From the NCBI GenBank assembly GCA_009924455.1, contig RFRO01000003.1:1-45069 (forward strand): DNA of 45,069 bases, written 5' to 3'. Origin of the DNA: Betaproteobacteria bacterium (lineage in GTDB: Bacteria > Pseudomonadota > Gammaproteobacteria > Burkholderiales > Burkholderiaceae_C). A program made the translations under genes and the position numbers. Of the stretch, positions 18,864 to 40,356 are shown in pieces. The number at the start of each line of letters is the position of its first letter. Positions within the stretch are counted from its first letter, which is position 1. The notes under the pieces are model-generated. The model did not search any database and was not told where the DNA came from. It was given only the letters and a program-made list of their open reading frames with translations.

Positions 18864-19546
18864 CTAGCGTTTGTTGGCCGCAGCGCCACCGCCAACGTTG
18901 CCACCGTTGCGGAAGGTTTTGAAGAACTCGGAACCGGCCGGGTCGAGCACCATCACATCGCTCTTGTTCGCAAAGCTGGCTTTGTAGGCGTCCAGGCTGC
19001 GGTAGAACTGGGCAAATTGGGCATCACGGCCAAAGGCTTCCGCGTAAATGCGGGATGCCTCGGCATCGCCCTCACCCTTGATTTTTTGTGCGTCCCGGTA
19101 CGCGTTGGCAATCGTGACCTCGCGCTGGCGGTCTGCATCGGCGCGGATTTTTTCGCCTTCGGCGGCACCGGTGGATCGCAACTCATTGGCAACACGTTTG
19201 CGCTCGGCTTCCATGCGGCGGTAGACCGATTCGGTGATCGCCTCTACATAGTCGACACGCGTGATGCGCACATCCACCACGTCAACACCCCAGGGCTTTT
19301 CGCCGCGCACTTTTTCCAGCACTTCGGCCTTGACCGCCGCCATCAGCGCTTCGCGCTTGAGCGACAGCAACTCCTTCACCGTGCGCTTGTTGATTTCCTC
19401 CTGGAAGGCATTGCGCACCACCCGGTTGAGCTGGTTGGCGCCAGCGCCCTCGTTCAAACCCACATTGCGGATATAGGGCGCGGGATCCGAAATGCGCCAG
19501 CGCACATACCAAAAATCGACGCGACGATAAATCCAATACGGTTCAT
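18864..19546 (-). pseudogene. hflC: hflC with internal deletion/frameshift (protease modulator HflC, N-terminal part missing)
   Basis: C-terminal part WYVRWRISDPAPYIRNVGLNEGAGANQLNRVV... in one frame; typical N-terminus MNRIGFIVAS starts at 19546 in another frame immediately after hflK; the conserved segment between them is absent. Confidence 0.8.
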
Positions 19547-28298: not shown

Positions 28299-29209
28299 TA
28301 CTTCACCTCGAAACGCGCAACATTGCCATGCGCAATTGACTTGATATCAAACACTTTTCCGCGAACCCAGACCTCGGTGGCATCGGCATTTCCGATCACC
28401 ACAGAAAGCGGCAACAGACCACTGAGGCCAGTCTGTTCCCCATCCGCCAAAACACGCCGCATGACGACGACACCTTTACCGTCTGCGATCTCCAGCCATG
28501 TTTTTCCATGGGATTTAAAACGGATCACGTCCGCACCGGGGGCCGGCGGGGACGGTGGTGCGTCACTGGCCGGGCTGCTTGCAGCATCAATTGGCGCAAC
28601 GGCAAGCACAACGGGCTCCGGCTCAGCAGGCAACGGGGCACTGACCGGACTTTGCTCGGGCGCCGACGCAACAATACCTTTCGCCACCCAGGGCTGCAAA
28701 GCCGATAAGGCCTCAGACTCCACCGCGCTGCGCATGGTCCAAGACGACACAGCAGGCCAAAAGTACAACAGTCCGGCCCCCACAATAAAGGCCAGCGTCC
28801 AGCGGATGTAGGGCTTGGCGACAACTTCCAACAGGCGGTGCGGACTATCGGCACCGGTCATCTCAAAGGGCATCGGCGCAATCGCACCCTCTTGCTTCAA
28901 GGGCTTGGTCGGCGCGGCCGGCAGCAAGGCCAGGATGGCCTGGGCATCGGCCTGCAATACGCGGCATATTCCAACCACCATGCCGCGCACAAAAACCGGC
29001 TCAGGCAAGGCGTCGAGGCGCCCTGCTTCCAGCGCTTCCAACTTGCGCACCGGCACTTTGACAACGGTCGCCAAAGCATCCAGGCTGTAACCCGCCGCTT
29101 CGCGCGCAGCCCGCAGCAAAGCACCCGCACGCTCAGCAGCGGAGGACTGCGGGGTCGGCGATTCGGCATCCGCCACGCGCAGCAGGTGGGCTTGCTCTGC
29201 CTCACTCAT
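28298..29209 (-). CDS. rodZ: RodZ-like helix-turn-helix/TM protein
   Basis: MSEAEQ start at 29209; HTH_25-type [57 protein letters not shown], single TM, Pro-rich linker, C-terminal DUF4115-like domain. Confidence 0.87.
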
Positions 29210-29818
29210 CGAAAGCCTTCCGCTCAAACCACAGAGCCTGCTGCGACTTGGGGAACTGCGTGCGCAGTTGTGAAGCAACTCGTAGGCGCGCAAGAAACTG
29301 CTGCGGCCTTCGGCCAAAGCGCCCGCCTTGCGTTGGCACAGACCCAGCGTGGTCCAGGTTTTGACCTTGTCCGAATAAGCCGGCAAGGCCAAGGCTGCGG
29401 CAAACATTTTCTCGGCCTCAGACCAGCGACCTTGCTGGCACAGGAACACGCCGTAATTGTGCTGAATGGGCGCAGCCTGGGGCTTGATTGCCAGGGCCCG
29501 CTTGAAGCTGTCTTCGGCGAAATCCGCCTCGCCCATGCGGGTGTAAATCAAACCCCGCAAGCTGTAGGCGTCGGCAGAATTGGGATTGATGGCAATCGAC
29601 TGCTTGACTTCGTCCAACGCCACCAAATTCTGACCGTTGGCAAAGTAGCCCGAGGCCAGCTCCAAGCGCAACAGCGCCCGCTTTTGTTCGCCGGAAATAT
29701 CCGACTCTGTCGGGATATCCGACCCTGCAGCGCGACCCGACCCCCCCGCGCAAGCTCCGAGCAACACGCCCAGCATGACCGCCAGGCCGACCCACACCCA
29801 AGGTCGGTGCAGCGTCAC
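29202..29818 (-). pseudogene. pilF: pilF/pilW (type IV pilus biogenesis TPR lipoprotein) with internal deletion and frameshift
   Basis: GTG at 29818; lipobox LLGACAGG and TPRs to FLRAYEL, then frame break; the PilF-type C-terminus [22 protein letters not shown] is present in another frame at 29270..29202. Confidence 0.8.
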
Positions 29819-30960
29819 AGCGCGGCACCCGCCAGCGCAGGCGCGCCGCGCACAAACTTCACCGGGCGCTGGCCGGACATCCGCTCCTGCACGCGTGTGC
29901 GGTCCATCACGTCGCCCGCGAGCTGCCCGCACGCCGCATCAATGTCCTGCCCCCGGGTTTTGCGTATCGTCGTCGTGAGGCCCGCCTCTGTGAGGACCTG
30001 TGCAAACGCCTGAACGCGCTGGGGCGGCGAGCACAGAAGCCCCGAAGCCGGGAACGGATTGAAAGGAATCAGGTTGAGCTTGCACCAGCTTTTGCCATCG
30101 CCGTAGCGCGCCAACACGTCGACAAGCTGCCGCGCTTGCTCCACGCTGTCGTTGACACCGTCGAGCATGCAGTATTCGAGGGTGATGAAATCTCTGGGCG
30201 CGTGCGCCAGATAACGCTCGCAGGCGCTCAGCAATTCGGCCACGGGGTACTTGAGGTTGAGCGGAACCAACTGGCTGCGCAAATGGTCATCGGGCGCATG
30301 CAGAGACACGGCCAAGGCGACCGGACAGTCCGCAGCCAAGCGCTCGATCATGGGCACCACGCCTGAGGTGGAGACCGTTACCCGGCGGCGCGACAGGCCG
30401 TAGCCGTGGTCGCTCAGCATCACCCGAAGGGCTGGGACCAGAGCTGCATAGTTTTGCAGAGGCTCCCCCATGCCCATCATCACCACATTGGAGATAACGC
30501 GGGTGGATCGCCCGAGGTGTTTGCGCAAGAAGTGTTCAGCAAACCAGAGCTGGGAGACAATTTCTGCAGTGCTGAGGTTGCGGCTGAAACCCTGGTGGCC
30601 GGTTGAGCAAAAGCGGCAGCCCACGGCGCACCCTGCCTGAGACGAGATACATAAGGTGCCGCGGTCGGTTTCCGGAATGAAAACCGCCTCGACGGCGTCG
30701 CCGCCACCGACATCAAAAAGCCATTTGATCGTGCCATCTACCGACGCATGCTGGGACAGCACGGACGGCGCCGCCACATGGGCCGAGACGGCCAATTTGT
30801 CCCGCAGCGATTTGGCGAGGTCGGTCATCGCGGAGAAGTCCGCCTCGCCGCGCTGGTGAATCCAACGGAAAAGCTGGGTTGCGCGGAAGGGCTTTTCGCC
30901 CAGACCCGCACAAAAAGCGGCCAAGCCCTCGATGTCAAAGTCGAGCAGGTTGGCCCTCAT
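29815..30960 (-). CDS. rlmN: 23S rRNA/tRNA adenine-C2 methyltransferase RlmN
   Basis: [45 protein letters not shown]; radical SAM CxxxCxxC. Confidence 0.96.
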
Positions 30961-33528: not shown

Positions 33529-34391
33529 TCAATCCGGAGGTGTTAAGCCAGTATATCCCAGCCCCTCGGCGCGCATGAGTCGCTCCATCGCAGCCGGAGG
33601 CCGCGCCTCAAAGCGCAGCGGCTGACCGGTAATCGGGTGGGCAAAGCCCAATCGACACGCGTGCAGCGCTTGCCCCGCAAGGCCGGGCGTGGACTTGCCG
33701 CGGCCATGCGCAACCGGTTACGCGGGTCCCGGCCAATCGCGCTCGTCGCGTGCCACAGCGGACCGCGCACCCAGTGTCCGTGCGCAATAGCCAGGTATTC
33801 GCGCCCCACTTCGCGTGCAGCGATGGCGGCAACCAGCGCATCCATCGCCGCCCGGGTTCGCGCTACCACCATCAGCCCGCTGGTGTCCTTGTCCAGCCGG
33901 TGCACGATACCGGCGCGGGGCACATCCATGAGAGCACCGTCCAGGGCCAGTAAGCCATTGAGCAGCGTGCCGCTCCAATTACCCGGTGCCGGATGCACCA
34001 CCAAACCGGCAGGCTTGTTGATAACCAGCACATCGGCGTCGCGGTAAACCACATCGAGCGCCATCGGCTCCGGCTTGAATGCCGTACTTTGGGGCGTGGG
34101 CTGCAGGCTGATCTGCATCCGGTCGCCGCAGCGCACGGTGGCCGATTGCTTGGCGGCAACACGCCCATTAACGGACACATGTCCGGCCTCAATCAGCTGC
34201 TGCAAATAGCTGCGTGAAAACTCCGGGACCACCTCCGCCAGGGCTTTGTCCAAGCGGATGCCATGCTGCCCAAGGCCCAGAACGACCTGCCGCAGCTCGA
34301 TCGCATCGCCGTGTACATCCGTCTCATCGAGCCCGCTTTCGAGAGGGTCGGTGGCTATACTGTTCGGCTTATCTTCCAAGGAATGTTCCAT
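33529..34391 (-). pseudogene. rluD: rluD (23S rRNA pseudouridine synthase) with internal deletion and frameshift
   Basis: Start MEHSLEDKP at 34391; catalytic HRLDKDTSG present; frame breaks after [11 protein letters not shown] at about 33705; genuine C-terminal region [35 protein letters not shown]...EGLGYTG in another frame to 33529; the HTGRTHQIRVH block is missing. Confidence 0.82.
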
Positions 34392-37241: not shown

Positions 37242-38351
37242 TCAGTGAGACGACGGCAGTGGCACCGACTGGGAACCTTTTTGCTCCCGCAGGCGACGGT
37301 CACGCTCGGCGATACGCTCTTCCAGTTCCTGCTGCTTGCGGGCAAGGGCGGATTCTTTGGGCTGAGCGGCAGCGGGCGCCGGGGCGCTGGGCAGGGGCTT
37401 GCTGGCCGCCTTGAGTGGGACCGCAATCACGGTCGCGGCGTGCGAGGCGCGTTTCTCATCCAAGGCGCGCTGCCGCGCCTCCGGTCCCGACTCACCCGAC
37501 GCGGCCAGGGCTGCATGTTCCGCGCGCTTCTGGTCCAAAGCACGCTGCCGGGCGTCCGGGTCGGCCGCAGCCGGTGCGGATGCCGCAATCGCCGCATGCG
37601 CGGCGCGCTTCTCTTGCAGAGCGCGGGCTTTTTCCGCATGAGCCACAGACGTAGCGGCATCGGCGGCGACTGCGGCATGTTCAGCCTGCTTTTCCCATAG
37701 CGCACGCTCCTTTTCAGTCTGTGCAGCGGCCCGCTCCTGCGCCTCCAGCTCCACATCGGCGCGGTCTTGCAGGCGCTGTGCACGGTCAGCCTCGCGCTGC
37801 ACGCGCTCCGCGACACGCGCCTGGCGCTCCAACTCCTCGGTTTCACGCTCCGCGTTGCGCTGCGCATAGTCTTGCTCGCGCTGCACGCGCTCCGCGACAC
37901 GCGCCTGGCGCTCCAACTCCTCGGTTTCACGCTCCGCGTTGCGCTGCGCATAGTCTTGCTCGCGCTGGGCCCGCTCTGCCAGACGGGCCTGGCGATCCAA
38001 CTCCTGCTGGGCCGCCGTTTCGAGCCGCGCTTGCGCGGCACTCGCCGCTTCTTGCTCGAGCAATGCGCGCTGCTGCTGTGACAGCGCCAGCTCCTGCTTC
38101 TTGATAGCCGCCAAGGCCGTGCGACGCGACCGCGCCACATCCGCCCGGCAGGCATTCACCAGAAAACGACCGTAACAGGCGCTATCCCTTTGGTTGTGCT
38201 CCGCATCAACCGCTACGCGCTGCACCTGCAACGCCTCCATTTGGATCGATAGCGCGGGATCGGAGATGTCGACGCCCAGGGACAGCGCCGGCACAAGGGC
38301 ACAGGCCAGCGCCAAGGCGCGCGCAAGCCAGCTGACGCGGCGCAGCCTCAT
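37242..38351 (-). CDS. Secreted/periplasmic coiled-coil protein with internal repeats
   Basis: Signal-like N-terminus MRLRRVSWLARALALACALVPALSLG; Glu/Arg/Gln-rich heptad-like repeats. Confidence 0.7.
   Translation of the reverse strand: MRLRRVSWLARALALACALVPALSLGVDISDPALSIQMEALQVQRVAVDAEHNQRDSACYGRFLVNACRADVARSRRTALAAIKKQELALSQQQRALLEQEAASAAQARLETAAQQELDRQARLAERAQREQDYAQRNAERETEELERQARVAERVQREQDYAQRNAERETEELERQARVAERVQREADRAQRLQDRADVELEAQERAAAQTEKERALWEKQAEHAAVAADAATSVAHAEKARALQEKRAAHAAIAASAPAAADPDARQRALDQKRAEHAALAASGESGPEARQRALDEKRASHAATVIAVPLKAASKPLPSAPAPAAAQPKESALARKQQELEERIAERDRRLREQKGSQSVPLPSSH
37791..37958. repeat. Two perfect 84-bp tandem repeats within the coiled-coil gene (a third partial copy follows)
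   Basis: ctcgcgctgcacgcgctccgcgacacgcgcctggcg...cgcatagtcttg repeated without visible mismatch at 37791-37874 and 37875-37958. Confidence 0.93.
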
Positions 38352-39579: not shown

Positions 39580-40356
39580 ATGCACCACACAACGGCCCTC
39601 GCCACCTTTCCCAGCCTGCGCGGCCAGCGCGTCTTCATCACCGGCGGAGCGACCGGCATCGGCGCCGCCATCGTCGAAGCGTTTGCGCAGCAGGGTGCGC
39701 AGGTGGCATTCGTCGACGTCGCCCAAGCACAGGCCGAGGGGCTCGCAGCGCGGCTTGCCGCCCTCGGCTACCCGCCCGTCTGGTGGCGCACCTGCGATGT
39801 GCGGGATATACCGGCGCTGCAAAACGCGATTGCCCAGGCGCAAACCGAGCTGGGCGACTTCTTCACGCTGGTCAACAACGTGGCCAGCGACGACCGGCAT
39901 GCGCTGGAGGCGGTCACGCTGGACTACTACGACGAGCGCATGGCGGTGAACCAGCGCCCCGCCTTTTTCAGCATCCAGGCCCTGGTGCCCGGTATGCGCC
40001 GGCTCGGAGGCGGCTCCATCATCAACCTGGGATCTACCGGCTGGCAGGGCAAGGGCACCGGCTACATCTGTTACTCGGTGGCCAAGTCCTCGGTCAACGG
40101 ACTCACCCGCAGTCTGGCCGACACACTGGGCGCGGACCGGATCCGCATCAACACGGTCTCGCCGGGCTGGGTGATGACCGAGCGTCAGATGCGCCTGTGG
40201 CTCGATGCCGAAGGCGAGGCCGCGATTGCGCGCAACCAGTGCCTGCCGGACAAGCTCCAGCCCTCCGATATTGCCCGCATGGTGCTGTTCCTGGCCTCGG
40301 CTGATGGCGCGATGTGCACGGCGCAGGAGTTCAAGGTTGACGCCGGTTGGGATTAA
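39580..40356 (+). CDS. SDR family oxidoreductase
   Basis: Glycine-rich VFITGGATGIGAAIVEAFAQQGAQVAFVD; YxxxK as YSVAKSSVNGLTRSLA. Confidence 0.93.
   Translation: MHHTTALATFPSLRGQRVFITGGATGIGAAIVEAFAQQGAQVAFVDVAQAQAEGLAARLAALGYPPVWWRTCDVRDIPALQNAIAQAQTELGDFFTLVNNVASDDRHALEAVTLDYYDERMAVNQRPAFFSIQALVPGMRRLGGGSIINLGSTGWQGKGTGYICYSVAKSSVNGLTRSLADTLGADRIRINTVSPGWVMTERQMRLWLDAEGEAAIARNQCLPDKLQPSDIARMVLFLASADGAMCTAQEFKVDAGWD

Follow-up and report, generated by a model that had tools for sequence, protein, structure and literature searches.

The 45,069-bp stretch of DNA analyzed here, referred to below as the window, includes a copy of rluD that appears broken in two. This break is almost certainly an artefact of assembly, either a blind scaffold join or a collapsed or removed gap, and the organism very probably carries an ordinary intact rluD. 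Clean losses of the same kind recur genome-wide, within this bin only, in all three reading phases and with essential genes included. The rluD break is therefore not to be taken as a real biological feature, and serves only as a warning for annotation. The window corresponds to contig C113 of the bin G000, a draft MAG of 2.5 Mb in 390 contigs that is 90% complete and 6.5% contaminated. No runs of N are found in the contig. The closest relatives with which the bin was compared are the genomes G005 and G016, whose RluD proteins show 94% and 90% identity, respectively, to that of the window.

The rluD locus and its relatives

The features of the window on which the analysis is based are collected in Table 1. 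The rluD reading frame, located on the minus strand, is clean from the ATG at 34391 to position 33702 and includes in frame the catalytic motif HRLDKDTSG that characterizes members of the RluD/RluA family, after which ORF reading and alignment show a switch of frame and the translation turns into nonsense. The C-terminal end of the protein is encoded in a different frame, from 33701 to 33529, and the HTGRTHQIR block that should connect the two halves is lacking. In a Pfam profile search of the bin the PF00849 match at rluD covers profile positions 1-83 of 152 only. As assembled, rluD does not encode a complete catalytic domain including LHTGRTHQIRVH, a block that is absent from both the window and the bin, and this incompleteness is attributed to an assembly gap.

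Table 1. Location of the rluD segments and of the three joins in the window
Feature	Coordinates	Strand	Characteristics
hflC join	19511..19512	-	229 bp missing, out of frame; comparison with G005; gene named by NCBIfam TIGR01932
pilW join	29273..29277	-	Net 184 bp missing; type IV pilus TPR lipoprotein; comparison with G005; TIGR02521 pilW
rluD C-terminal piece	33529..33701	-	Ends LTPPD*; frame differs from that of the N-terminal part
rluD join	33701..33702	-	172 bp of both closest relatives missing; 1 bp ambiguity; halves out of frame
rluD N-terminal 230 codons	33702..34391	-	S4-like domain and catalytic HRLDKDTSG, in frame; 94%/90% amino acid identity to G005/G016 RluD

Alignment to the homologous contigs of the two relatives (G005:C7 and G016:C69) defined the lesion as a single clean event in which exactly 172 bp were lost at 33701/33702, with an ambiguity of 1 base. 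This length is equivalent to 57.3 codons, and the lost segment encodes VVDLARQSGK...LHTGRTHQIRVHMAE...VYG, which includes LHTGRTHQIRVH. A preliminary description made from the sequence had reported two rluD halves in different frames with the HTGRTHQIR block missing, and had estimated the loss at 50-60 amino acids; the ORFs and the alignments to G005 and G016 confirm the former, and the measured length falls within the latter. The DNA flanking the join on its two sides is 90% and 89% identical to that of G005, and thus there is no sign of decay around it. Chance can be disregarded, as the whole of rluD aligns to either side of the join. Slippage between direct repeats was considered for this locus and discarded, as the nearby ATGGC words do not yield the observed junction, at which the homology is 1 bp.

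The rluD gene is intact in both close relatives, and the identities of 90-94% to G016 and G005, which become 60-67% across the genus, indicate orthology to an intact RluD. The G005 orthologue passes TIGR00005 and has PRK11180 RluD as its nearest match, but it scores below the cut-off of PRK11180 itself. When compared to RluD, the 23S rRNA pseudouridine(1911/1915/1917) synthase (NF008385; RluA family TIGR00005, PF00849), the S4-like N-terminal part, the HRLDKDTSG motif and the C-terminal end found in the window are collinear with the intact RluD of the relatives; unlike RluD (NF008385), the window copy as assembled is devoid of the 172 bp including LHTGRTHQIRVH and its halves are out of frame. 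The missing block was not found elsewhere in the 390 contigs of the bin, where the search yielded paralogue matches only. The preliminary description had also considered that a second intact rluD elsewhere, together with read support for the join, would make this copy a true pseudogene; no second rluD was found in the bin, in which the remaining PF00849 matches are paralogues with about 33-41% identity. A search of plasmid records with rluD returned only distant chromosomal-type paralogues or orthologues.

Clean deletions across the bin

A total of 60 bin stretches and 60 further G005 stretches were aligned, with the window included; of the roughly 760 kb of bin sequence, about 348 kb aligned. 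Over these 348 kb the bin showed 20 clean deletions relative to G005, or one in about 17 kb; in G005 no clean deletion relative to the bin was found over the same sequence. At this rate, the three joins present in the 45-kb window are what would be expected. The deletions range from 62 to 327 bp (mean 196, SD 74, n = 20), and their lengths modulo 3 are distributed 7/7/6, which indicates the lack of selection for frame. Junction homology is 0-4 bp, near chance, in 19 of the 20. Extremes of G+C content were examined as a cause of the gaps and none was seen, the lost parts (0.61) matching their flanks (0.615) over the 20 deletions. The remaining deletion, a 62-bp loss in the stretch L270, has 13 bp of homology and may be a real one. 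As a control, G016 was compared with G005. Neither the 39 kb examined in this region nor three additional 20-kb queries from G005 revealed such a deletion, and in the latter G016 is continuous through sites of the joins in the bin. Recurrence throughout the bin, restriction to one assembly, absence of frame bias and short homology in 19 of 20 cases together have the characteristics of collapsed gaps. A difference in the opposite direction was also observed, a segment of about 4.6 kb in the bin (L235 3785-8370, G000:C2) that is cleanly absent from G005.

Some of these deletions are located in genes that a living cell requires. The only full copy in the bin of rplN, the gene for the ribosomal protein L14, has 158 bp removed and is left out of frame (L243 3080, G000:C10). 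In a whole-bin search for L14, residues 1-28 and 78-122 were the only ones recovered, each in a frame of its own, apart from a 21-residue fragment (71% identical) in contig C359 whose origin may be a contaminant. The sole copy of ispE in the bin lost 221 bp, with 178 of the 279 residues and a tail remaining, and further joins were found in the orthologues of cca, gshB, carB, gltB and zwf. The loss of L14 is incompatible with life. As the joins cut the only rplN and the only ispE, a living cell could not harbor all of them, and because a bacterium with its L14 destroyed would not be viable, the joins as a class are to be regarded as artefacts.

Origin of the joins

The most probable course of events is that two sequenced pieces were joined and the unsequenced stretch between them, of about 60-330 bp, was left out; one such join within rluD would have dropped the 172 bp that include the LHTGRTHQIRVH block. 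An assembler that works by k-mer overlap requires the pieces to share a word wherever they are joined, which is not the case at these sites, and from this we infer that the step at fault would be scaffolding with a gap that was later dropped, or blind end-to-end joining. The fact that the 172-bp block was not left as a separate contig counts against an artefact, but a gap that was never assembled would explain its absence equally well. False pseudogenes that arise in draft genomes through errors of sequencing or of assembly are the topic of PMC11017572, and in a similar way the apparent frameshifted genes of the window would reflect assembly and not evolution. The difference would be that the cause here is the repeated omission of 62-327 bp at joins and not single-base errors.

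The preliminary description had left open whether the gene is dead or the join artefactual. The latter option is supported by the 20 like joins in about 348 kb and by the cuts in rplN and ispE, while the former, and with it a disruption of rluD in the biological sense, is not supported given the intact rluD of the relatives and the recurrence of joins in the bin. A true rluD pseudogene would imply a real frameshifting 172-bp deletion in the population, with helix 69 perhaps no longer pseudouridylated or else modified by a different enzyme, and we consider this very unlikely. The lack of both a second rluD and the missing block in the bin is in its favor, as is the fact that Escherichia coli does not strictly require RluD. 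However, the flanks of the join are undecayed, both close relatives have an intact gene, and identical joins exist across the bin, including those in the essential rplN and ispE; the lesion is thus not specific to a dispensable gene, as essential genes with a single copy in the bin carry lesions of the same kind. The existence of a free-living freshwater Comamonadaceae population that is naturally without RluD and without helix 69 pseudouridines must be given equally little credence.

A streamlined freshwater lineage whose genes are decaying throughout the genome, rluD being but one pseudogene among many, is extremely improbable. Although there are many interrupted genes in the bin, and its genome (2.5 Mb) is small compared to those of several members of the genus, decay would not be limited to clean single losses of 62-327 bp between intact flanks, it would not kill the sole L14 gene, and the similarly small genomes of the close relatives G005 (2.2 Mb) and G016 (2.3 Mb) show none of it. 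As for a restoration of RluD by translational bypass, programmed frameshifting, or the chemistry of a spliced or mobile intron, its probability is practically nil. Nothing beyond the existence of the two frames speaks for it, and DNA is missing rather than inserted; with 57 codons, including the conserved LHTGRTHQIRVH, gone from the DNA no recoding could restore the protein, and this explanation is refuted.

Other features of the window and consequences for the bin

An assembly artefact at rluD has implications beyond this gene. The bin includes approximately one silent omission of 60-330 bp per 17 kb that is not marked by runs of N, and a simple scaling of this observed rate suggests that about 140 genes may be affected in its 2.5 Mb. 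Gene losses, frameshifts and fusions taken from this bin are therefore not credible unless reads support them. One example is the apparent 546-amino acid pilW-rodZ frame at 28301-29938, which was opened by the loss of 184 bp in pilW; this fusion gene is not real.

Two in-frame differences of another kind were observed with respect to both relatives. An exact 84-bp (28-codon) tandem duplication at 37791-37967, in a region of coiled-coil-like repeats, is absent from G005 and G016, and could reflect either a genuine expansion of the repeat or overlapping ends left unmerged at a join. At 40355 there is an in-frame insertion of 36 bp relative to both G005 and G016.
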